64,000 nt of DNA from Haladaptatus sp. R4 (GTDB taxonomy: Archaea; Halobacteriota; Halobacteria; Halobacteriales; Haladaptataceae). Position numbers and translations under genes: made by a program. The stretch is from the NCBI RefSeq assembly GCF_001625445.1, contig NZ_LWHG01000021.1:124001-188000 (forward strand), in the 5' to 3' direction. Below are positions 3,950 through 58,200 of this stretch, in pieces. The notes below the pieces were generated by a model that searched no databases, had not been told where the DNA came from, and saw nothing but the letters and a program-made list of their open reading frames with translations. The first letter of the stretch is position 1. Each line of letters begins with the position of its first letter.

Positions 3950-5218
3950 TCAGATCACTCTGGAAACGGTCGAGAGGAGGTCGTCGGGGGTAACGACCGC
4001 GCCCCGTTCGCAGAGGGATCGATACTGCACCGCCGCGTCGCTTCCGGCGTAGTTCCGCTCCGCGAACGGTCGCTCCTCCACGACGACGACCGAATCGGCT
4101 TCCGCGACCGCCTCCAGGTTCGCCAGGTTGCCCGCTCCGATTTCCACGTCGGCGAGGACGGTCACGTCCGCCTCGCGAATTCGTCGCTCGACGGCCTCCC
4201 GCGCTTCCGTTCCTATCGGCGCGAACGGGTCCTCGGTGACGGCGTCGAGTCCGAGAAGCCGAGCGGTTTCGAGGTCCGAATCACCCTCGTTCAGCACGCC
4301 GACGGACACCTCGTAGCCCGCCGCGGAAAGCAGGTAGAGCAGTCGGGAGACGGTTCCACCGCCGCCGACGACGTGTATCCGACCGCCCGTTTCCCCCGTT
4401 CCCCCGTTTTGCGCGGGTCGGTCGGGGAGCGCGGTGACGTACGTCGAACCGGTGACCGGATGGCTGGAAACGACCGCACGGGCGTCGAACGCCTCGCGTA
4501 GCGTCTCCTCGGCCAGCACTTCCGTCGGCGGTCCGGACGCGAGCACCGACCCGCCAGCGAGCAATAGGAGTTCGTCGCAGTAGTGGGCCGCGAGGTTCAG
4601 GTCGTGAATCGCGGCGACGACGGTTTTCCCGTCCGCGACGAGTTCGCGGACGAGTTCGAAGGTTCGGACCTGGTGATTGATGTCGAGGCTGGCCGTCGGT
4701 TCGTCCAGCAGGAGGACGGGCGTGTCCTGTGCGAGCGCCCGCGCGAGCAGGACGCGCTGGCGCTCGCCGCCGCTGATTTCGGTGATCGAACGGTCGGCGA
4801 ATCTCGAAACCTCGGTTCGGGCCATCGCACGCTCGACGAGGTCGGTTCCGGTTTCGGCGCTCGTCCCGTCGTTCGATCCGTCGCCGAGTTCGCTGCCGAA
4901 CCGCGAGCGGTACGGGTTTCGACCCATCGCGACCACGTCGCGCACCGAGAAATCGAACGACAACGTGGTGTCCTGTGGAACCGTCGCCACACGGCGACTG
5001 GCGGCCTTCGAGGAGAGGTCGGCGATGGCGTCGTCCGCGACGACCACCCGGCCGGAATTCGGCGTGAGAACGCCGTTCATGGCGCGGAGGAGGGTGGTCT
5101 TGCCTGCGCCGTTCGGGCCGACGAGGCCGACGAACTGCCCGTTCTCGATGGTCGCGGAAACGCCGTCGAGGATTTCGCTGTCGCCGAGCGTTATCGCCAC
5201 GTCCTCGATTCGGATCAC
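3950..5218 (-). CDS. btuD: Cobalamin/corrinoid ABC transporter ATP-binding protein with C-terminal extension
   Basis: ABC ATPase of 422 residues starting at the GTG at 5218, whose GTGA overlaps the stop of btuC, so translation is coupled. Walker A is GPNGAGKTT at residues 34-42; the signature SGGERQRVLLARAL and Walker B VLLLDEPTASLD follow, then the His switch (AIHDLN). After about residue 255 a Pro/Gly linker leads into an extra domain of roughly 150 residues that begins with a Gly-rich strand-loop (HVVGGGGTVSRLL) and looks Rossmann-like. Such extended BtuD proteins occur in haloarchaea. With btuC and divergent btuF it forms a B12 importer; heme or siderophore transport is less likely. Confidence 0.88.
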   Translation of the reverse strand: MIRIEDVAITLGDSEILDGVSATIENGQFVGLVGPNGAGKTTLLRAMNGVLTPNSGRVVVADDAIADLSSKAASRRVATVPQDTTLSFDFSVRDVVAMGRNPYRSRFGSELGDGSNDGTSAETGTDLVERAMARTEVSRFADRSITEISGGERQRVLLARALAQDTPVLLLDEPTASLDINHQVRTFELVRELVADGKTVVAAIHDLNLAAHYCDELLLLAGGSVLASGPPTEVLAEETLREAFDARAVVSSHPVTGSTYVTALPDRPAQNGGTGETGGRIHVVGGGGTVSRLLYLLSAAGYEVSVGVLNEGDSDLETARLLGLDAVTEDPFAPIGTEAREAVERRIREADVTVLADVEIGAGNLANLEAVAEADSVVVVEERPFAERNYAGSDAAVQYRSLCERGAVVTPDDLLSTVSRVI

Positions 5219-6324
5219 AGCGAACGCACCTCGCGTTTCCGCAGGAGATAGAGGAAGAAGGGCGCGCCGAGGAAGGCGGTGACGATGCCGACCGGGAGTT
5301 CCGCCGCGCCGACGGCGGACCGGGCCACGGTGTCCGTCGCAACCAGAAAGACCGCACCGGCGAGCGCGCTGGTCGGGAGCAGGATTCGGTGGTCCGGACC
5401 GACCAGCAGGCGCATGATGTGCGGGACGACGAGGCCGACGAAGCCGATGACGCCCGAAACCGCGACGGCGGCGGCGGTGACGACGCTGGAGACGATCAAC
5501 AGAAGCCGCTTGGTTCGTTCGACTTCGACGCCGAGGTTGTGGGCGTCCTCCTCGCCGAGCAAGAGGACGTTGAGGTCGGAAGCGAAGAGGAGCAGGACGA
5601 CGAAACCGAGAACCGTGACGGGAAGCGCGATTCCGAATTTCGTCCACGACGCGTTGTTCAGGTGGCCCATCAGCCAGAAAACCGCCTCGCGCAGGCTTCG
5701 CCCGCTCCGGAGCAGGAGGTAGGAGACGACCGCGCCGAGGAGGGTTTGGATCGCGACGCCAGCGAGCAGGAGGGTTGCGACGGGTGTTCTGCCGTTCTGG
5801 GTCGCCAGCAGGTAGACGGCGAACGCCGCGAGAATCGCGCCGACGAACGAACAGACGGGGAGCGCGAACGGGATCGAAATCGAGAGCGCGATGGTCGCCA
5901 CCGCGCCGACGGCCGCGCCCGAGGAGACGCCGATGATGGAGGGGTCCGCCATCGGGTTTCGGAAGAAGCCCTGCATCACGACGCCCGCGGTGGCGAGGGC
6001 GAACCCGACCACGGCGGCGAGGGCGATTCGCGGCATCCGGAGCCGCATGACGATGATCGTGGCGGTTTCCGGGACGGCGAAGGAGAAGAGGTGGCTGTAC
6101 TGCAGATCGAACGACGGGAACGTGATGACGAGTCCGCCGGGAACCGTGAGCGCCCCGCTCACGAACCGGATTCCGGTCGGAACGGCCAGCGCGTTGAGCA
6201 GCGCCTTTCCGACGACGAGCGGCGAGAGCGACGTCGGGCCGATGGCCGCGCTCACCAACACGACGGCGACCAGCGCCGCTACCAACCCCGCACACCACGT
6301 CGTCACTCGCGTCCCGTATCGCAT
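5215..6324 (-). CDS. btuC: Cobalamin ABC transporter permease, FecCD family
   Basis: FecCD-family permease of 369 residues with about ten transmembrane helices and family motifs such as LRMPRIALAAVVGFALATAG near residues 95-113, the region contacting the partner ATPase (GVMQGFFRNPMADPSIIGVSSGA), and GFVGLVVPHIMRLLVGPDHR in the C-terminal half. It forms the membrane channel of a type II importer with BtuD and takes substrate from BtuF. It overlaps btuD by 4 nt. The ATG at 6324 lies 27 nt from the palindromic TATA box shared with btuF, so a leaderless mRNA is expected. Confidence 0.92.
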   Translation of the reverse strand: MRYGTRVTTWCAGLVAALVAVVLVSAAIGPTSLSPLVVGKALLNALAVPTGIRFVSGALTVPGGLVITFPSFDLQYSHLFSFAVPETATIIVMRLRMPRIALAAVVGFALATAGVVMQGFFRNPMADPSIIGVSSGAAVGAVATIALSISIPFALPVCSFVGAILAAFAVYLLATQNGRTPVATLLLAGVAIQTLLGAVVSYLLLRSGRSLREAVFWLMGHLNNASWTKFGIALPVTVLGFVVLLLFASDLNVLLLGEEDAHNLGVEVERTKRLLLIVSSVVTAAAVAVSGVIGFVGLVVPHIMRLLVGPDHRILLPTSALAGAVFLVATDTVARSAVGAAELPVGIVTAFLGAPFFLYLLRKREVRSL

Positions 6325-6386
6325 CTATCTGAAAGTGAAATTGCTTTAGGTAAATATTTATTGAATACGGCCGACGTGCCGACTAC
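6325..6386. promoter_or_regulatory. Bidirectional btuC/btuF promoter with one palindromic TATA element
   Basis: The 62-nt divergent spacer contains TAAATATTTA at 6351-6360, a perfect palindrome. Exactly 26 nt separate it from each start codon (btuC ATG ending at 6324, btuF ATG beginning at 6387). A single TATA box could therefore serve both genes as leaderless transcripts. No archaeal B12 riboswitch is recognisable in so short a spacer. The spacing and symmetry are read directly; dual use is inferred. Confidence 0.65.
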
Positions 6387-7481
6387 ATGAGACACCGACT
6401 GTTGTCGGCGCTGTTGCTCGTTACCGTCGTCGTCAGCTCCCTCGGAGCTGGCGTCGGTGCGGGCGTCGCGGGCGCTGCTGACGCACAGACCACCTGCAAG
6501 TTCCCGGTCACGAAAACCGACGCGACGGGAGCGAAGGTGACGATAAACGAAGCGCCGAAGCGGATCGTCACGCTCTCGCCGAGCGCGGCCCAGACGATGT
6601 GGAAGATCGGCGGTAAGGACAAGGTCGTCGGCGTATCGAAGTACTCGGCGTACCTCGACGGCGCGAGCGAGAAGACGAACGTTTCGGGTGCCGGGATGAC
6701 CGCCGTCGTCCCGGAGAAGGTCGTCTCGCTGAATCCCGACCTCGTCCTCGCCCCGAACATCATCTCCGACGAGACGGTCAAAAAGCTCCGGAACGCCGGG
6801 CTGACCGTCTACAAGTTCCGCGAGGCCAAATCCATCGACGACATCTACGCCAAGACGAACCTCACCGGCAAACTCACGGGCGAGTGCGGCGGTGCGAAGG
6901 AGACCGTCTCGTGGATGAAAGACCGAATCGAGACCGTCCATCAGGCCGTCGAGGGTGAGGACAGTCCCTCGGTCATGTACGTGATGAGCGGCGGGTACAC
7001 CGCCGGGAACGGCACGTTCATGGACACCATCATCACGCAGGCTGGCGGGACGAACGTCGCCGCGGAGGCAGGAATCTCCGGCTACCAGCCCATCAGTAAC
7101 GAGGTCGTCGTCGAGCAGAAACCCCAGTGGTTCATCGTCTCGACGGGCGCGAAGATACCCGACGCTTACAGCAGCACCCCCGCCGCGAAGAAGAACCAGA
7201 CCGTCTCGCTGAACCCCAACTACGTCAGCCAGCCAGCCCCACAGATCGTCAAACCGATCGCGAAACTGGCCAAGACGCTCCACCCGAAGGCCTATCAGAA
7301 GGCCAACGTCACGACGACGACCGAGCAGACGATGACTTCAGCCGACTCGGGTTCGAGGACGACCACGACCACCGCCGACTCGGCCACCAGCACGAGCGAA
7401 TCCGGCGGCCAACCCGGATTCGGCGTTCCGATTGCGGTCGTAGCACTCGGACTCGTTGGACTGTTGACGCGGCGTTTCTGA
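6387..7481 (+). CDS. btuF: Cobalamin-binding substrate-binding protein with PGF-CTERM anchor
   Basis: Extracellular solute-binding protein of 364 residues. A Sec signal peptide (residues 1 to about 33, ending AGAADA) is followed by a periplasmic-binding-protein-III fold: PKRIVTLSPSAAQTMWKIGG, then VVSLNPDLVLAP near residue 112. A Thr/Ser-rich linker (about 305-340) leads to a tail QPGFGVPIAVVALGLVGLL ending in RRF, the tripartite PGF-CTERM signal processed by archaeosortase, so the mature protein is probably lipid-anchored outside the cell. It delivers cobalamin/corrinoids to BtuC-BtuD, transcribed divergently. Heme binding cannot be fully excluded. Confidence 0.88.
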   Translation: MRHRLLSALLLVTVVVSSLGAGVGAGVAGAADAQTTCKFPVTKTDATGAKVTINEAPKRIVTLSPSAAQTMWKIGGKDKVVGVSKYSAYLDGASEKTNVSGAGMTAVVPEKVVSLNPDLVLAPNIISDETVKKLRNAGLTVYKFREAKSIDDIYAKTNLTGKLTGECGGAKETVSWMKDRIETVHQAVEGEDSPSVMYVMSGGYTAGNGTFMDTIITQAGGTNVAAEAGISGYQPISNEVVVEQKPQWFIVSTGAKIPDAYSSTPAAKKNQTVSLNPNYVSQPAPQIVKPIAKLAKTLHPKAYQKANVTTTTEQTMTSADSGSRTTTTTADSATSTSESGGQPGFGVPIAVVALGLVGLLTRRF

Positions 7482-8633: not shown

Positions 8634-9665
8634 ATGGACAATCGAACGCGGGAGTTCTTCGCGTCCGGGTTGACCGTCGCCATCTTTCTGGCGGTGCAAC
8701 TCGGCGCGCTGGCGCTGGTGAAGCCGTTCAAGACGGCGGGGTACCAGACGGTCAGCGACCCGTCGGACCCGACGAACAGCCTCGTCTACATCGGCGTCAT
8801 CCTCGTCTTCACGGCGGGAATGCTCGTCGTCATCAAACTCGGCGTGCAATGGATTCTGCGCGCGGTTATCATCCTCACCAGCGGGATGATTTCGCTGTAC
8901 GTGTTCAGCGTCGTGATTCCGGCGGTCGTCACGGTGACGGTCTCCGATTCGCAAGTCAACGTGCTCGCGTGGGTCTTCGCCGCGCTCGTTTCACTCGCGC
9001 TGGCAGTGTATCCGGAGTGGTACGTCATCGACGCCGCGGGCGTCCTGATGGGTGCCGGGTCGGCGGGACTGTTCGGCATCAGCTTTGGCTTGCTCCCCGC
9101 TATCCTCCTACTCACCGTGCTGGCCGTCTACGACGCCATCAGCGTCTACGGCACGGAACACATGCTCACGCTCGCCTCCGGCGTGATGGACCTGAAGATA
9201 CCTGTCATCCTCGTAATTCCGCTGTCGCTCTCCTATTCGTTCCTCGAAGACGCCGTGCAGGCGACGAGCGAAGGCGCGGTCAGCGAGAACGACGACGAAC
9301 TGGTCGGCGATGGGGACGGCGAGTTCGACGATTCCGAGAGCCTCGGCGAAGCAGTCGGAGATGAAGGGGAAGCGAATCGGGACGCCTTCTTCATCGGTCT
9401 CGGCGACGCGGTCATGCCGACCGTGATGGTCGCCAGCGCGGCCTTCTTCTCCCCGGCGAACGCGCTCCTCTCCGGAATCGCGCTCAACCTGCCCGCGCTG
9501 ACCGCGATGATCGGAACGATAGCCGGACTACTCGTCCTGCTGTGGATGGTGATGAAGGGCCGAGCACACGCCGGACTGCCGCTCCTGAACGGCGGCGCAA
9601 TCGGCGGCTACCTCGTCGGCGCGCTGGCGAGCGGCATTCCGTTGATGAAAGCGCTCGGATTGTAA
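8634..9665 (+). CDS. Presenilin/signal-peptide-peptidase-type intramembrane aspartyl protease (A22 family)
   Basis: Polytopic protein of 343 residues with about nine transmembrane segments. The catalytic motifs are all visible: Tyr-Asp with Asp167 (LAVYDAISVYG), Gly-Leu-Gly-Asp with Asp258 (FIGLGDAVMP) and the PAL motif at 287-289 (NLPALTAM). These define the GxGD intramembrane proteases that cleave transmembrane helices of signal peptides or membrane proteins. An acidic loop (about residues 215-250) separates the two catalytic Asp-bearing helices, as in the exon-9 loop region of presenilins. It follows srp19-gar1 in the same direction, 79 nt downstream. The substrate is unknown. Confidence 0.9.
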   Translation: MDNRTREFFASGLTVAIFLAVQLGALALVKPFKTAGYQTVSDPSDPTNSLVYIGVILVFTAGMLVVIKLGVQWILRAVIILTSGMISLYVFSVVIPAVVTVTVSDSQVNVLAWVFAALVSLALAVYPEWYVIDAAGVLMGAGSAGLFGISFGLLPAILLLTVLAVYDAISVYGTEHMLTLASGVMDLKIPVILVIPLSLSYSFLEDAVQATSEGAVSENDDELVGDGDGEFDDSESLGEAVGDEGEANRDAFFIGLGDAVMPTVMVASAAFFSPANALLSGIALNLPALTAMIGTIAGLLVLLWMVMKGRAHAGLPLLNGGAIGGYLVGALASGIPLMKALGL

Positions 9666-49598: not shown

Positions 49599-50573
49599 AT
49601 GCCTCGTATATCGGTCATCATTCCAACATACAATGACGAGGATGATATCGGGAGAACGTTGGATTCCCTTCGAGCGCAAACATTCCAAGATTTCGAAGTG
49701 ATCGTCGTGGATGATGGTGACGATGGAACTGCGGACATCGTTCGCGAATCGCCGTATCGCGTCGTGGAACGGACGACTACCGGTATCGCGAGTGCACTGA
49801 ATCGCGGAATCGACGAAGCGGAAGGCGAGTACATCGCTCGTCACGATGCGGACGACACGTCGCACCCGGAACGGTTCGAGAAACAGACAGAGTTCCTCGA
49901 CGAACATCCCGATGTCGGTGTGCTTGGCACCGGTGCATACATCGTCGAAGACGGGGAGATACGTGCGCGACGACGGGTTTTAGAACGGGTTCCGCGGGAG
50001 GCGTTCTTCGAAAAGAACCATCTCGTCCACGGAAGCGTCATGATGCGACGTGACGTACTCGACGATGTCGATTATTACGATGAACGGCTTGACCATATCG
50101 AGGATCTTGACCTATGGGTTCGAATCGCCGAAACGTCGACCATCGCAAACATCGACGAACCGTTGTACGACTTCACCGTTCACGAGGAGAGCGTCTATGC
50201 GGAACGGTTCGAAGAGGTGCTGTTACTCCACAAATTTATCAAGGAACGTGAGTCGGGAATCCCGAAGGAAGTCGAACAAGCGGTCTACGACGGTGACCCG
50301 TCCGCAATCCTTCCCCACATGGAGAACGATATCGCCACGCTCCATCGAACGATGGCGATAGAACACCTCCGCTACGGCCGACTGCGGGAAGCGCGGAAGG
50401 TGATCTCCAACTCGATTACGGAGGGGATGAGCGCCATCGACCTCCCACTCTACATCCTTTCGCTCACCTCTCCTGCGACGGCCAAGCGTGTCGCCGACAT
50501 GTATCGAAAGATCCTCAATTGGCGGATAGCACGCCAAAACAAGCATTTGAGTCCAGTTTCGTCGCCCCGATAG
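49599..50573 (+). CDS. Glycosyltransferase family 2
   Basis: Protein of 324 residues with an N-terminal GT-A domain: MPRISVIIPTYNDEDDIGRTL, DFEVIVVDDGDDGTADIV and EYIARHDADDTSHPERF, where HDADD is the metal/nucleotide motif near residue 90. The second half contains HGSVMMRRDVLDDVDYYDERL, typical of acceptor-side loops. A long helical C-terminal extension follows. It resembles Agl-type glycosyltransferases that act on lipid-linked sugars. AT content here is visibly higher than in the neighbouring regions, suggesting recent transfer. It converges with the flippase gene. Confidence 0.88.
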   Translation: MPRISVIIPTYNDEDDIGRTLDSLRAQTFQDFEVIVVDDGDDGTADIVRESPYRVVERTTTGIASALNRGIDEAEGEYIARHDADDTSHPERFEKQTEFLDEHPDVGVLGTGAYIVEDGEIRARRRVLERVPREAFFEKNHLVHGSVMMRRDVLDDVDYYDERLDHIEDLDLWVRIAETSTIANIDEPLYDFTVHEESVYAERFEEVLLLHKFIKERESGIPKEVEQAVYDGDPSAILPHMENDIATLHRTMAIEHLRYGRLREARKVISNSITEGMSAIDLPLYILSLTSPATAKRVADMYRKILNWRIARQNKHLSPVSSPR

Positions 50574-50583
50574 CGGATCGATC

Positions 50584-52024
50584 TCACACCCATTCTCGGC
50601 CGCGTCCCGGTAGACCCCTAGAAGAGTGACACGCAAGTTGTCGCTCAGGAGTAACAGCACGCACCCGTAAATGACTGCGCCAACCGATATCACGCTGCCG
50701 ACCTTCCACCAAACGTCGAGCGTCAATAGGTTCGTAAGTATCTCTATGACTAGATACATGACGCCCCCCGCGAGCAACTGTTCAAGAAGCGTCCGGGGAA
50801 TGTGCGTGATGTTCGATAAAAGACGGTGTACCGTGAGCGCCCGGAAGACCCCACGAACGAATTCCGCTACTATCGTGGCGATTACGACGCCGATTCCGCC
50901 AAGGCTGGAAATCAACAGCAACCCCAATACGATGTTGATCGCCAACGTGACGACCGATATTCTGAGATCGAGATTCGGTTTGTCGAGTCCCGACAGTGTG
51001 CTCGAATAGATATCCGACTGTGTCTGGATGACACGGAAGAGTGCGAGCCCAACGAGAAACGTCGATGCATCCGCGTACTTCCCCCCGTAGGTCGTGACGA
51101 CCAGTTTTGAGCCATCGATAGCGCACCGAAAAAGATCGGAATGGAGACGATACTCGAATAGGAGAGTGCATTGGAGATATCCCCGGACGGGTCCCCTCGT
51201 CGGCTGTGAATGTTGGAGATCTTCGGCATCAGACCATTGGTGATCGCTCCCGTCAGGAATATCGCGGGGAGCGTGAGTTTCATCGCCACTTCGTAGTCGC
51301 TGACCACCGCCTGCGTTAGGATCGTTCCGAGGAGGAGGATGTCCAACCGGTCGTACGTCTCCCCGATGAGGAACGATGGCATCGTATATCTCGCGTAGGA
51401 CCAGACGGATTTCACGACGCCGAACGACGGGAGACTCGGAGAGAGATCTAGAAAATAGTACGTTATGGGGACCGTCAAGAAGGTCGCGGTAGCCAGTCCG
51501 AATCCCATCCCCGCGGCACCTAACCCAGCGAGAATGAACGCAATTTGCAGTGGAAGCGTCAGAACCGATCGAAGTGTGTCCAACCAGGTGGCGAGCGACG
51601 GGTTCCCTCGTGCTTTGAGGAGCCCCTGTAGCGGGAAGAAAAACGCGAGTGAGATCCAAATGGAGAAAAACACCCATCGAGCCATCGGGACGTTCGTATG
51701 GTCCACGACGAGATTCGTCGTTCCAACCACTGCTCCACAGAGGAAGAACAGGACAACGTTCAGGCAGAAGATCAGTCCCAGTAGTTCCGACTTCGCGCTC
51801 CCGTCCTCGGAGAACCGTTTTTTCACCGCGAAACCGATTCCACGAACTGGCTGATCGACGAGAAACACGATCGAGAGCAGGAAGTAAAAGCCGCCGAACG
51901 CGCTCGGGTCGAACAGACGAGCGAAAATGACCGTCCCAGCGAATCCAAAAGTCGCCATCACGCCTTTCGCAAGGAGTCCTTTGATTGACTCCCAGCCGAG
52001 AGACATCGTTTCTATTTCAGCCAT
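50584..52024 (-). pseudogene. Polysaccharide/lipid-linked oligosaccharide flippase (MATE/Wzx-like), frameshifted
   Basis: From the ATG at 52024 (MAEIETMSLGWESIKGLLAKG) the frame encodes a 12-14-helix MOP-superfamily flippase, with VIFARLFDPSAFGGFYFLLS and TMPSFLIGETYDRLDILLLG. At LSMAQNWSS (near 51112) it turns into nonsense; another frame continues with SKLVVTTYGGKYADASTFLVG and GGIGVVIATIVAEFVRG. One missing base (ATGGCT to ATGGGCT) joins them. The continuing frame then runs 350 nt through the antisense glycosyltransferase, so a second missing base near 50600 (AREWV, stop at 50584) is likely. It would flip the glycan for AglB. Confidence 0.8.
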
Positions 52025-52160
52025 GGAGAGGGGAAGCGATCGGTATTCTGGAAGTCGTGATAGTCCGACAGCCAAGAGATCCGCGGGTCGTTCGAACAGC
52101 TCCGTCGAAGCTGTATTCAGTCATTGCTACCGTGTAGAGACGAGATACGCTTATTCTTAG

Positions 52161-53240
52161 TCATAGGTATCCAAGGTCTTTCAGATCCTCTTCGACCGCA
52201 TCGGATTTTACGATTCCGGACGGTTCGAACCGACTCTGTTTGCGCTGTAATGCTGGTCGACTCACTTCGTCTCCATCGCAGTCGAACACGCCGTTCGGAT
52301 TCGCGATGAGCCCCTCCTCAATGGCAGCGGCCTTGTTTCCGTGACTCGCGTACGCGGTCGTCCGATCAAGCATCCCCTTCCGGTATTCTTCGCCGAGGAC
52401 GATGGACGGAATATCGATACTCGATACGAGTTCGCTCTCGACAGAGGCGGTCGTTGCGAACGGGACATGCAATATCTCCTCACGTAACAGACCGGGGTGA
52501 CCCCAGATTCCGTCCTCACCGAGCATCTCTCCATGATCCGCCGAGAATACGACGGTCGTGTCGTCGGAGATGATGTCCCAGAGTTCGGCAAGTTGCGCGT
52601 CCAGCTCGACCACCTCCTGTCTATACAACTCGCGAACCGTCTCGGCCTCCTCGCCATGAACGCCGTTAGCAATCGCTTGCCGACTGAGCTCTTGCGCTTC
52701 GCCCCGGGAGAGATCGGTATCGTCGGGATCGTAGGGGTGGTGTGGTTCCATGAAGTGGAGCCAAGCGAACCACTCGTCTCCCGCGACGTTCTTGAACTCT
52801 GAAACCACATCGTCGGCCGGTCGAAACGACTTCTGTACGGTAGTGGGAGAGAGCCGTTGGTAGAGCGAATAAAGACGTGCAATGGCCCCGTACACCGGTC
52901 CCTCAGGAAGGATCGAATCGACTCGCTGTTTCAATCCTTCCTCGCGGGACGGTGTTGGCGAACTGAAGTGGTCGAATCCAACGTCGTACCCGTATCGCTC
53001 CGAGATGAGTCGGTTCGTCGTAATGCCGATCGTCGGTACGTCGATCTCCTCGACAAACGATTCCGAAATCTCGTTCGACTTCGTATACGTCCCGGTGAAC
53101 ACGTTCGGAAACGTCCCGAGTGTCGCTGTCGCTGTTGCGTACGCGCGGCCGTGTGAGTCCCCGAGAAATTCCCGCGTTCGCTCCATATACTGGTAGTGAT
53201 CATATCGAAGCGAATCGACCGTTACAAGTAGCGTTTTCAT
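52161..53240 (-). CDS. Sulfatase-like, alkaline-phosphatase-superfamily hydrolase/transferase
   Basis: Protein of 359 residues with an N-terminal metal-site strand LLVTVDSLRYDHY, a nucleophile region ATATLGTFPNVFTG with Thr/Ser rather than the C/S-x-P-x-R formylglycine signature, FAWLHFMEPHHPYDP, and VVFSADHGEMLGEDGIWGHPG near residue 230, which supplies the second pair of metal ligands. These proteins are phosphatases, phosphoethanolamine- or phosphoglycerol-transferases; a true sulfatase is less likely without the Cys motif. It lies between two glycan genes and overlaps the next by 4 nt, so it probably decorates the glycan. Confidence 0.8.
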   Translation of the reverse strand: MKTLLVTVDSLRYDHYQYMERTREFLGDSHGRAYATATATLGTFPNVFTGTYTKSNEISESFVEEIDVPTIGITTNRLISERYGYDVGFDHFSSPTPSREEGLKQRVDSILPEGPVYGAIARLYSLYQRLSPTTVQKSFRPADDVVSEFKNVAGDEWFAWLHFMEPHHPYDPDDTDLSRGEAQELSRQAIANGVHGEEAETVRELYRQEVVELDAQLAELWDIISDDTTVVFSADHGEMLGEDGIWGHPGLLREEILHVPFATTASVESELVSSIDIPSIVLGEEYRKGMLDRTTAYASHGNKAAAIEEGLIANPNGVFDCDGDEVSRPALQRKQSRFEPSGIVKSDAVEEDLKDLGYL

Positions 53241-54061
53241 CGTATCTCACCAAATTCGTCTCGAAGTGGACCATCAAGTACGATGTCGCTGTTCTTGTCG
53301 ATTCCATACTCCCACGACGGGAACTCACGCCACGAGTGGCGTTTCCGGCCGTAATTTCGGAGCCCACGAGAATCCCACAATCCCTTCAACGCTATCGCAT
53401 CCGCAACGAGCGCCTTCGGGGGCGAAAATTCGTGGTGGTGAAACCGAGCGATCTGTCCGTACGAGAATCCACAACGAAGGTTATCGCGGGTACTTCGCGA
53501 CCACTTTTGCATCCGTTTCGGAAGCGTCGAGACGTCACGAGTCGGGATCTCTTCGCTCTTGTTTTCGGGATACAGACGTAGGGTAACTCCGTCCGTTCGA
53601 AGAGCCCTATCGACGAAGACACGTTCTTCCACACGTCCGAGAGGAGGCCACCCACCGATTTTCTCGTGGACATCTCGAGACGAGATGTATATCGAATCGA
53701 GCGTCATGAAAAAGAGATTTTCGTGTTCCTCGCGGAGAGACTGATATAGTTCGAGGTATTCCGTTAAGTCCTCGTATTGACGGTCCGTGTCGAGATGTTG
53801 AACGAGGATCTCTCCACTGCTCTCTTGGACAGCGATTTCCCTCCCCTCGCCGAGGTTCGATTCTTCAACTACGAACTCAACCGGTTCGTGCTTTTCTGAC
53901 AGATGTATCAATTCTTCTAGACTCTCGTCCGTACTTCCTCCGTCAACGACTATCAACTCGCTACTATCGGGGAGTGACTGTACCAACGACGTAATCGCTG
54001 TGTCGATACTGTCCCCTTTATTATAGTTAGTCGTCAGGAAGCTCCATTCGACAGACATCAT
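53237..54061 (-). CDS. Glycosyltransferase family 2
   Basis: GT-A protein of 274 residues: MMSVEWSFLTTNYNKGDSIDT, SSELIVVDGGSTDESLEELI, and IQHLDTDRQYEDL-like motif (ILVQHLDTDRQYED, DxD) near residue 95. The ATG at 54058 is an alternative start. The C-terminal half is helical and basic. It shares the reading strand and a 4-nt overlap with the downstream sulfatase-like gene, and an 87-nt gap separates it from the upstream one. AT-rich codon use marks the whole block 52161-55048. It likely adds one sugar to the lipid-linked glycan transferred by AglB. Confidence 0.87.
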   Translation of the reverse strand: MMSVEWSFLTTNYNKGDSIDTAITSLVQSLPDSSELIVVDGGSTDESLEELIHLSEKHEPVEFVVEESNLGEGREIAVQESSGEILVQHLDTDRQYEDLTEYLELYQSLREEHENLFFMTLDSIYISSRDVHEKIGGWPPLGRVEERVFVDRALRTDGVTLRLYPENKSEEIPTRDVSTLPKRMQKWSRSTRDNLRCGFSYGQIARFHHHEFSPPKALVADAIALKGLWDSRGLRNYGRKRHSWREFPSWEYGIDKNSDIVLDGPLRDEFGEIR

Positions 54062-54148
54062 TCGACTCCCTGAGCGCAGTTCGGTGTGTCTCGTGTTGCT
54101 GGATCGGTCGGCCGCTTCAGCCCTTTTGAATCTCCTCGCGGGAGTGTA

Positions 54149-55048
54149 TTACATATAACCAAGGTCATAGAGTCGGTCCTCAACTTCTGTTGCAGTTGCT
54201 TCATACTTTTCCGGTTCCGTCGTGGTGAACGTTCTCTCATCTGTACAATCGTAGACATCCCATGGTACCCTTCTGAGCTGTGGGATCGGATATCCTGCTG
54301 GATGACCGTAGGCGCCCCATTCACCGAACGCATTTCCGTGGTCCGCAGTGATAGCAACGGTACCAGTGACGTTTTCCATCAGTAGTTCGACCTCCTCGAA
54401 GACGTATTCGAGATTGTCGCGGTATGCTCTCCAAGCGTCCTTATCGGAGATACTTCCCAACCTCATTTCGAGCCAGAAGTCGCGTCCCGGATCGCCGAAC
54501 TTTGCTTTCTCTATCTTCCCACCGATATTGACGTCACTTCCGATGGCGGGGAAATGAGGTTGCATGTAGTGGATGATCATTCGTTCCGGGGTTTCTTGCC
54601 GCCACGTCCGAACAGCCTCGTTGGTAAGCGGTCGTGGTGGAATCGTCCCCTCGTCGTCATCCCACCCATACTCCCATACCTCTTCCAGCGCATAGAAATG
54701 GTTCTCGTCGAGATACTCACGCGAAAAGATATTGCCGGTGATATAGGCAGTTCCGGTCGTGTCCGCGTTGCCAAATGTATGTTGCATCCACTCCTCGGAT
54801 GAACTGCCGACCGACCAGATAGTGTCGGCATCCCCGTTGATAGTCTCTCGATAGAGGTCGAGACGGCAGGCATCAAGGATTACCAGTACGTCCCACTCTT
54901 TCTCATAAACGTTCGTCCCGAAACGATTTACGTACGGTGTTTTCGAGATAGCACTGGTGAAGAAATCCTTCGATATGTCCGGTATCGATTTCAGACCCTC
55001 CCGTTGAAAGTGCCTATCAGACTTCTCGATGAAATCCTTGAGTGTCAT
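54149..55048 (-). CDS. Alkaline-phosphatase-superfamily (sulfatase-like) protein
   Basis: Protein of 299 residues from the ATG at 55048 (MTLKDFIEKSDRHFQREGLKS). Metal-site motifs are VLVILDACRLDLYRET near residues 60-75, a Ser-rich putative nucleophile in SVGSSSEEWMQ, IIHYMQPHFPAIGSD, and TVAITADHGNAFGEWGAYGHP around residue 235-255. It lacks the C/SxPxR formylglycine motif. The family hydrolyses or transfers phosphate, phosphonate or sulfate groups. Together with the other sulfatase-like gene it flanks a glycosyltransferase, so the glycan probably carries an acidic substituent. The longer start at 55105 is not supported. Confidence 0.78.
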   Translation of the reverse strand: MTLKDFIEKSDRHFQREGLKSIPDISKDFFTSAISKTPYVNRFGTNVYEKEWDVLVILDACRLDLYRETINGDADTIWSVGSSSEEWMQHTFGNADTTGTAYITGNIFSREYLDENHFYALEEVWEYGWDDDEGTIPPRPLTNEAVRTWRQETPERMIIHYMQPHFPAIGSDVNIGGKIEKAKFGDPGRDFWLEMRLGSISDKDAWRAYRDNLEYVFEEVELLMENVTGTVAITADHGNAFGEWGAYGHPAGYPIPQLRRVPWDVYDCTDERTFTTTEPEKYEATATEVEDRLYDLGYM

Positions 55049-55292
55049 TCTACTTTCCCGCTTGTTCCTACGGGGAATAGAAGAACTTGTCGGTAGATGG
55101 GGCATTATAAACGTTCATAGAATTACCGTAGATGGGAATCATGAACCATCGCTGGTGGTGATTTTCCCGTTTTCAGAAACGGTTCAGCGCAGATAGTTAC
55201 AGAATATTTCATGTTTTCCAACACGTTACCATTCCGAATTCGAAAACACGCTATCATAAGGCTTATGCGCGTTTTGCCAAATTCTCCACCAG
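55049..55292. promoter_or_regulatory. Divergent promoter region of the sulfatase-like gene and aglB
   Basis: The 244-nt spacer holds no gene. For aglB a TATA-like GGCTTATGCG (about 55258-55267) lies roughly 26-31 nt before the ATG at 55293, consistent with a leaderless mRNA. The minus-strand promoter is less clear, within an AT-rich part near 55100-55140. This is where expression of the glycan genes and of the transferase could be coordinated. Confidence 0.45.
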
Positions 55293-58200
55293 ATGAGCCA
55301 AGGCACCGAACAGGTCGAGGACACCTCCACGTCGGCTACTTCAGTCCTCGACTATATCGAACACTGGTACCACATTCCCGTACTCGTACTGTTACTGGGA
55401 TTCATGTTGTGGGTACGCCTCCAATCGTACGGCAACTTCCTCATCAACGGGAAGGTGTACCTCTCCGGTAACGACGCGTGGTATCATCTCAGACAAGTAC
55501 AGTATACAGTCAATCATTGGCCCGCGACGATGCCGTTCGACCCCTGGACGTACTATCCGTTCGGGACGAGCGTCGGCCAGTTCGGGACGTTTTACGACCA
55601 ACTCGTCGCCACGGCGGCGCTGATCGTTGGGCTGGGGGACCCGTCCCACCACACGGTTTCACTGACGCTCCTCGTCGCCCCAGCGGTCTTCGGCACGCTC
55701 GTCGCCATCCCGACGTATCTCATCGGGAAGCGACTGGGCGGCCGACTGGGCGGCCTCTTCGGCGTTCTCGTGTTGGCGCTCATTCCGGGAGTCTTCTTGA
55801 ACCGTGGTTTGGTCGGATTCTCGGACCACAACATCGTCGAGCCGTTCTTCCAGACGTTCGCCGTGCTGGCGATGATGATCGCGATTTCGGCCGCGGAACG
55901 GGAACGCCCCGTCTACGAACTCCTCTTGGACCGTGATTTCGCGTCGGTCCGCCGACCGCTCGGCTACAGCGTCCTCGCGGGAATCGCGACCGCGATGTAT
56001 CTCTGGGTGTGGCCACCGGGCGTCCTCCTCATCGGCATCATCGGCGTGTTCTTCCTGCTGAAACTGACGGCGGACTACGTGCGCGGTGTCAGTCCCGACC
56101 ACCTCGCTTTCGTCGCCTCGATCAGCATGGGTGTGGCCGGGTTCCTCTTGCTCGTCCCGCTCGGAACGATCGCGTTCAGCGCGACGAAGTTCTCCCTGCT
56201 CCAACCGTTCATGGCGTTCGCCATCGCAATCGGCGCGGGATTCATGACGTGGCTGGCACGCGAATGGGACGACCGAAACCTCATGACCACGGGCTACCCG
56301 CTGGCGATCTTCGGTATTATCGCCGTTGGCGCCCTCGTCGTCTCCGTCGTCCTACCGAATCTGTTCCACCTGATTCAGGAGAACCTCGTTCGCTTCGTCG
56401 GGTTCAACGCGGGCGCGGCACAGCGCACCATCGGTGAGGCGAAACCGTTCCTGAGTAGCGGCGACTCGCTGACGTCGGCGGTCGTCCCCCAGTACGGTTT
56501 GATGTTCTTCACGGCCATCATCGGCGCGTTGGTGATGGTGTGGCGGTCGGTGTCGTCGAACGAGAACGACGCCGAAAAGATGCTCGTGCTCGTGTGGTCG
56601 GCTTTCATCCTCGCCGCCGCGTTCACGCAGGTGCGCTTTAACTACTACCTCGCGGTTCCGGTCGCGGTGTTGAACGCCTACCTCTTCGGGTGGGTGCTCG
56701 GACTCGTCGGCTTCGGAAAATCGACCAGTCAAACGATCCGAAACGCCGAACTGTATCAAGTGCTCGCCATCTGTTTCGTCTTCCTGCTGGTCGTCCCCGG
56801 ACTCGTCATGCCGATGTCGGTCGGGGGGTCACAGACCTACACGGCACAGACGGTCGGTAACAACACCGGACCCGGTGCGATCACGCAGTGGGAAGGCAGC
56901 CTGCAGTGGATGCAGGGCAACACGCCACAGGAAGGCAACTACGGTGCCGGAAACAACAGCTCGATGGCCTATTACGGCACGTACACGCAAGGTGACGGCG
57001 ACTACGACTATCCGAACGGGTCGTACGGCGTCATGTCGTGGTGGGACTACGGCCACTGGATCACCACCAACGGGGAACGGATTCCGGACGCCAATCCGTT
57101 CCAGGAAGGTGCGACCACCGCTGCGAACTATCTGCTCGCCCAGAACGAGTCACAGGCCAACGCCATCCTCGACAACATGGGCGATTCGAACGAGCAGACC
57201 CGCTACGTGATGGTCGATTGGAAGATGGTCGAGACGAAGGGACAGAGTGGGAACGTCAAGTTCTTCGCGCCGACCGTCTTCGACGACAACGTCTCGTCGA
57301 GTGACTTTGTCGACTACATCTACACCAACAGCAGTTACATCACCCAACACAAGCAGGCGTACTACAACAGCACGATGGTTCGCCTGTACAAGTACGACGG
57401 GAGTTCCGTCGATGCGCAACCCGTCGTGTTGGACTGGGATCTGACCACGTACCAGGGTCAGACGTACAAGATCAATCCGCAGGTGAAGAAGTTCGACACG
57501 ATGAAGGAAGCCCGTCAGTACGTCAAACAGGACGGCTCCTCGCAGATAGGCGGTATCGGACCATATGCGAGCGAGGATATCCCGGCGCTTCAGCACTACC
57601 GTGTCGTCCACGAGAGCCAATCCACCGCGCTGCGCTACGGATCGACGCACTACCAGGTGTTCGCACAGCGGGCACAACTCCTGCAACAGGCTAACGTCTC
57701 CGTTCAGGATTACTTCCGCACGTCACCCTCGTGGGTGAAGACGTACGAGCGCGTTCCCGGCGCGACGGTGCAGGGAACCGGTCCGGCGAACACCGAGATC
57801 ACCGCGTCGGTGAAGATGAAATCCGCCACCGGCGGCACGTTCACCTACACCCAGAAGGCGACGACGGACGCGAACGGGAAGTTCACCATGACGCTCCCGT
57901 ACTCCACGACCGGCTACGACAAGTGGGGAACGGACGAGGGGTACACGAACACCAGCGTTCGTGCCACCGGTCCGTACGAGTTCTCGACACCGAAAACGCT
58001 CGGCGACGGCGGGGTCACGTTCAAGAACGCGACCGCGCAGGTCTCGGAGGGCAAGGTCATCGGCGAGGATAACTCGCCGGTGACGGTGTCGGTCACGAAC
58101 CAGCAGACGGTTCCGGTCGAGGGCGCGAACAACTCGTCCAGCAACAACTCTTCGGCCGGTTCCGCACCGAACAACGCGACGGGCGGCAACTCCTCGGCCG

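Follow-up and report, generated by a model that had tools for sequence, protein, structure and literature searches.

A conserved composite element in the btuC-btuF gap of Halobacteria is a probable bidirectional promoter

Results

The vitamin B12 transporter genes of Haladaptatus sp. R4 diverge from a short gap. We analyzed a 64,000-nucleotide stretch of DNA from this archaeon (hereafter, the window; contig NZ_LWHG01000021.1, positions 124,001 to 188,000), in which the divergent genes btuC and btuF are separated by 62 nt (6325-6386; Table 1). These gene names, given in a sequence-only reading made before database searches, were borne out. BtuC scored 570.4 bits against the NCBIfam equivalog NF007081, 'vitamin B12 ABC transporter permease BtuC' (cut-off 461), and its closest named relative is a protein of Haladaptatus sp. 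DYF46 (89% identity). BtuF scored 452.7 bits against TIGR04281 (cut-off 325). The score of BtuD against the corrinoid ABC ATPase model NF007082 was 488.7 bits, below the cut-off of 537. Downstream from btuF, at 8634-9665 of the window, is a presenilin/signal-peptide-peptidase protein (Pfam SPP, 305.8 bits). The G+C content at 50001-56000 is 0.535-0.552, compared to ~0.59-0.68 in the remainder of the window, and this region was possibly acquired.

Table 1. Genes and sequence features at the btu locus (window coordinates).
Feature	Position	Strand	Description
btuD	3950..5218	-	ATPase of a corrinoid ABC transporter; lies second in the btuCD unit, overlapping the end of btuC
btuC	5215..6324	-	B12 ABC transporter permease; ATG at 6324 (start CAT 6322-6324)
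Upstream block [CA]AA-N6-TTG	6332..6343	+	AA 6333-6334, TTG 6341-6343; proposed operator/activator site
Conserved TAG adjoining the box	6347..6349	+	T 80, A 79, G 79 of 80 homologous gaps
Palindrome TAAATATTTA	6351..6360	both	consensus YAARTAYTTR; read as two overlapping opposed BRE-TATA units
Left arm	6351..6354	-	TTTA on the minus strand; proposed btuC TATA core, -30..-27
Left arm AAA	6352-6354	+	proposed btuF BRE, -35..-33
Right arm plus TT	6357..6362	+	TTTATT; proposed btuF TATA core (TTTA -30..-27); complement is the proposed btuC BRE
Conserved TTG, btuF side of the box	6361..6363	+	T 79, T 80, G 80 of 80 homologous gaps
btuF	6387..7481	+	PGF-CTERM-anchored substrate-binding protein; ATG at 6387

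The gap contains a perfect 10-nt palindrome. As had been claimed, and as direct reading confirmed, TAAATATTTA is identical to its own reverse complement and is exactly 26 nt from the ATG of btuC and from that of btuF. It occurs once in the window (mean of 0.01 in shuffled sequence) and at a single place, read on both strands, in the whole genome (4,896,694 bases). The block on the btuC side of the palindrome is at -55 to -44 relative to btuF and at -8 to -19 relative to btuC.

The position of the palindrome fits that of leaderless BRE-TATA promoters on both strands. In Haloferax volcanii, the BRE is 'CGAAA', the TATA box is 'TTWT', and 72% of protein-coding transcripts are leaderless; short leaders of 1-5 nt occur in 317 cases (PMC4983044). 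We calibrated promoter position on 135 annotated genes with an upstream gap of at least 60 nt from four Haladaptatus plasmid stretches and found peaks, relative to the start codon, at -29 for TTTA, at -28 for TTWT, and at -36 to -34 for AAA. On both strands of the btu gap, TTTA is at -30 to -27 and AAA is at -35 to -33, in agreement with this calibration; the full CGAAA is absent. With its AAA followed by TTT, a BRE-TATA unit of haloarchaea is inherently close to a palindrome, and this accounts for the ability of a single short palindrome to serve two leaderless genes. No AT-rich stretch other than the palindrome was seen at -25 to -35 of btuC or btuF. As in archaeal bidirectional core promoters, a symmetric AT-rich core lies between divergent genes at promoter distance from both. 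The sequence-only reading had described one TATA box; the geometry is better matched by a pair of opposed cores, one in each arm, displaced from each other by ~6-7 bp.

We also looked for known regulatory elements of other types. There were no Rfam matches at the gathering score in window positions 5900-6800, either to a cobalamin riboswitch or to another known RNA, and there were no sigma-70-type sites or terminators, which are not expected in an archaeon, at 6200-6500. The TrmB motif is TACT-N7-GAGTA, and inspection by eye found no such site.

The element is conserved, and directional, across Halobacteria. A first collection comprised 103 loci, 85 of which had both btuC and btuF as determined by tblastn, giving 80 distinct gaps. 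The element was present in all 85 loci with both genes, and the 80 gaps had the consensus [CA]AA-N4-N-R-N-TTG-N3-TAG-N-YAARTAYTTR-TTG. In the upstream block, AA was found in 79 of 79 homologues and the two T residues of TTG in 80 of 80 and 79 of 80. On the btuC side, conservation continues for 19 bp beyond the box, and on the btuF side it ends straight after TTG; for this reason, we regard the element as directional. The earlier description of a symmetric promoter does not hold for the conserved element as a whole, which is strongly one-sided, with [CA]AA-N6-TTG-N3-TAG on the btuC side versus only TTG on the btuF side.

The two start codons keep similar distances from the box. In homologues, both are typically 24-27 nt away. 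The perfect centring emphasized in the sequence-only reading is exact in the window and only mildly special among homologous gaps: 55 of the 80 distinct gaps had both spacers at 22-29 nt, and among these the spacers were equal in 21 (15.9 expected if independent) and differed by no more than 1 nt in 44. The box is nearly centred because both genes share the same box-to-start distance.

The form of the palindrome was conserved more than its exact sequence. TAAATATTTA itself was present in 24 of the 80 homologous gaps. Conservation of the palindrome in related genomes, which the sequence-only reading had singled out as a check, was partial: 94 of 101 distinct paired elements fit YAARTAYTTR and 34 were exact dyads, counts that are biased upward because the anchor used for this set favours elements with the upstream block. 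The first and last bases of the 10-mer were associated (10, 13, 6, 51; Fisher 0.0018), and the fourth and seventh bases were not significantly so (2, 8, 35, 35; p 0.10), indicating that there is no consistent compensation that preserves the dyad.

There is essentially one site per genome, which is unusual for a regulon. The 23-base core pattern TTGNNNTAGNYAARTAYTTRTTG, with up to one mismatch, was found in 229 of 242 genomes of the class (one copy in 220 and two copies in 9), versus 4 genomes for the same pattern written backwards. A sequence profile of 41 positions, built from 56 elements and used with matches at E up to 0.05, gave 57 matches in 55 of 59 class genomes. Most of these (54) were directly upstream of a BtuF match, two others (L212 and L230) adjoin btuF, and the last (in G028) was outside the neighbour check. 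With up to three mismatches, a search for a wider regulon in the element's own genome found only the btu site and one site with three mismatches (L105), whose neighbours did not look like cobalamin genes by eye; a profile search of nine genomes of the genus found only btuF loci and one match at E 0.29. By eye, no regulator gene adjacent to btuCDF was recognised among the reading frames of the window. In three genomes of genus g68 (L147, L148, and L149, around 1501-1523), a related motif, TTGGTC[CA]AG-N-TAAATATTTG-TTG, is found away from btu genes, with a reading frame of ~392 aa beginning ~300 nt downstream, and is possibly a second target.

The left arm was retained more often where a divergent gene starts nearby. 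A left arm that serves the divergent gene is expected to decay where no gene starts ~25 nt away. We compared elements that have such a gene (paired) with those that do not (unpaired), counting identical elements once per context and leaving out L055 (at a contig edge), L080, and L088. The left arm YAAR was intact in 103 of 105 paired elements and in 13 of 19 unpaired elements (Fisher 1.4e-4, an optimistic value since the losses cluster in few lineages and perhaps represent only three independent events). Four of the six unpaired losses (L150, L169, L172, and L181) were from one family, f4, and the others were L048 and L155; the left arm was broken in two paired elements (L074 and L182). In L048, L150, and L155, the AAA of this arm reads ACA. 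The whole palindrome was kept in 97 of 105 paired versus 9 of 19 unpaired elements, and the upstream block was kept in 102 of 105 versus 17 of 19, a difference that was not significant. Retention of the right arm was also lower in unpaired elements (15 of 19, versus 104 of 105 in paired elements), and some of the decay thus reflects btuF paralogues degenerating in general.

Assignment to the two groups involved several choices. L097 and L098, in which the btuC match begins at residue 80, were counted as paired, as were L142, L163, and L167, in which the box is 23-26 nt from the start of a long divergent reading frame. The copy near btuF in L048 was counted as unpaired. Six of the unpaired elements have a short frame whose ATG is 22-25 nt to the left; in a stricter version without these six, 8 of the remaining 13 kept the left arm. 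Several elements on Haladaptatus plasmids (L153, L156, and L160) count against such a role of the left arm, since their palindrome is still perfect with the annotated divergent gene at a distance of over 80 nt. Taken as comparative evidence, retention of the left arm by context supports real two-way use.

The element follows btuF-family genes even at loci that lack btuC or have a cobalamin-synthesis gene in its place, and such new arrangements come with second copies of the element. In L142, L163, and L167, it is between a btuF-like gene and a divergent gene resembling precorrin methyltransferases (cbiE-like; function read by eye from sequence) that starts 26, 24, and 23 nt from the box, respectively. 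In L163 and L167, with the divergent gene at 23-24 nt, the centre of the palindrome has changed (CAAAGTTTTA) and the arms are kept. In L145, the element is upstream of a btuF-like gene, and the next gene upstream is CobT-like as judged by eye. On Haladaptatus plasmids L152, L153, and L156, a btuF paralogue is 24-25 nt from the element and, in the opposite direction, the annotated cobyrinate synthase gene begins at a distance of over 100 nt; L155 has no cobyrinate synthase partner on the far side. In L152 and L153, frames of 28 and 33 aa, whose N-termini are alike (MNCR...), begin with an ATG located exactly 25 nt left of the box. These short frames sit between the box and the cobyrinate synthase gene and are perhaps leaderless on a divergent transcript. 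In L080, btuC carries the element and tblastn found no btuF match at the locus.

One locus has separated the two halves. In L048 (Salinibaculum litoreum), the gap is 142 nt and contains, by eye, two tandem copies of the element, one by each gene. The copy near btuF is without the left arm (CACA), and the copy near btuC is without the right arm (CCTG) and without TAG. This is a natural split of the two-way promoter, in which the damaged arm of each copy is the one that would serve the other gene.

Discussion

We believe that the gap between btuC and btuF is probably a composite bidirectional control element, made up of two overlapping, opposed BRE-TATA units and an asymmetric site for a putative regulator. 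On each strand, one arm of the palindrome would be the TATA core (YTTR, at about -30 to -27) and the other would be the BRE-like AAA (-35 to -33). Since each arm is then the TATA core of one gene and the BRE of the other, TBP and TFB could load in either orientation, never both together, and would yield leaderless btuF and btuCD transcripts. The transcription start sites, the use of both arms by TBP, and the existence and ligand of the regulator are predictions from sequence. The sequence-only reading had also proposed bidirectional use, and the spacers to both starts, the geometry on the two strands, and the decay of the left arm where no divergent gene is present all support this. The accompanying proposal that the arrangement keeps transporter stoichiometry constant found no support here: use of the two overlapping cores would be mutually exclusive, and the site beside them lacks symmetry.

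The two-way element could instead be one TATA box used both ways, with TBP on the centre of the palindrome, flanking BREs or a regulator setting the orientation, and leaders of 3-6 nt. The dyad in the window is perfect, the PF1918 promoter of Pyrococcus furiosus fires both ways from one TATA box with start sites 49 bp apart (PMC6640164), and short leaders do exist in H. volcanii, as described above. However, a TATA box centred on the palindrome (6355.5) would be ~31 nt away from both start codons, exceeding the Haladaptatus norm by 3-4 nt, the palindrome's centre varies in L163 and L167 while the arms are kept, and the arms have been lost separately in L048. We consider this alternative unlikely.

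Two other explanations take promoter function away from one or both arms. A protein-binding operator that takes up all of the 32-bp block (for example, two CAA/TTG dyads 20 bp apart), with the palindrome inside it and the promoter of one or both genes elsewhere, is quite improbable. The two TTG triplets are exactly 20 bp apart and conservation across the class is extreme, as such an operator might have, but neither gene has another AT-rich stretch at -25 to -35, and most of the six unpaired elements that lost the left arm kept the upstream block, indicating that the left arm is not needed for the upstream site. Least probable of all, and by our estimate hardly credible, is that the promoter serves only btuF and has an activator site upstream of it, that btuC is expressed by spill-over or from a promoter inside the btuF region, and that the palindrome is incidental. 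That the asymmetric block follows btuF paralogues agrees with this, as does the AAA-TTTA spacing, which is the genome norm, so that a BRE-TATA unit is naturally near-palindromic. It does not account for the btuC start keeping 24-27 nt to the box in most homologues, for the left arm being kept when a gene starts there and less often otherwise, or for L080, which has btuC and the element with no btuF match at the locus.

In the composite element that we favour, the asymmetric block is a candidate site for a regulator. [CA]AA-N6-TTG-N3-TAG would be upstream of the btuF core and next to the BRE-like AAA, a place for an activator or operator, and downstream of the btuC core and before the start codon, a blocking position. 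One putative regulator could act on both genes and would most plausibly sense corrinoid or cobalamin status, a suggestion drawn from the partner genes only. More tentatively, and with less than even confidence, we suggest that Halobacteria share a dedicated, essentially single-site control of B12 uptake, in which the candidate regulator site is fused to the two-way core, and that this module moved intact with btuF-family genes to cbiE-like, CobT-like, and cobyrinate synthase partners. If so, the same site would be upstream for btuF (activating or blocking) and downstream for btuC (blocking), and the choice of direction could itself be regulated.

For the question of what sets the direction of an archaeal promoter, the btu element is an experiment that nature has replicated. 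Its core occurs with and without a divergent partner, with exchanged partners, and divided in two (L048), and comparison of these cases can reveal what each arm does. The element also suggests that nearly all haloarchaea have in common a putative regulator that controls B12 uptake. As far as our searches show, the novelty lies in a class-wide composite element at the genes for B12 transport and in the reappearance of this element beside other cobalamin genes. The papers listed by our searches, which covered the openly licensed literature, included none that names a haloarchaeal btuC/btuF promoter, and this is not proof of absence. The CBL-box, attributed to Rodionov in 2003, is reportedly a candidate site for an archaeal B12 regulator; none of the papers listed by our search of the openly licensed literature had this term. 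By description only, the btu element is like the CBL-box in being a proposed cobalamin-regulatory DNA site in archaea.

Symmetry of a core promoter element can give divergent transcription in bacteria as well. Bacterial bidirectional promoters rest on symmetry of the -10 element (PMC12825309, citing Warman 2021), which belongs to sigma-70, whereas the btu element would be used by TBP and TFB.

Archaeal bidirectional TATA promoters are already known. The TATA box of a promoter of halovirus HF2 also works in the opposite direction (PMC8707807), and like the btu element it is a single haloarchaeal TATA for divergent transcripts. It differs in being viral and not serving a transporter pair, and the passages that deal with it describe no shared asymmetric block. 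The P. furiosus promoters have a bidirectional BRE-TATA-BRE arrangement, with in vitro proof at PF1918 (PMC6640164). In these, too, one AT-rich core is read both ways with starts at a fixed distance on either side, and the output, as presented in the sections concerned, is mostly sense and antisense, with no conserved partner gene. The btu element, in contrast, serves two genes of one transporter and has leaderless geometry, offset cores, and an asymmetric site conserved across the class. The gvpA and gvpD genes are likewise haloarchaeal divergent genes under one regulator (putative in the case of btu) with a site next to the BRE: their promoters have overlapping sites for the activator GvpE that adjoin the BRE, and separate TATA-BRE elements 35 bp apart, each with its own activator site (PMC4390858). 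The btu gap lacks this GvpE-type arrangement. Its two cores overlap as one, and a single asymmetric block, on one side only, lies between one core and its gene.
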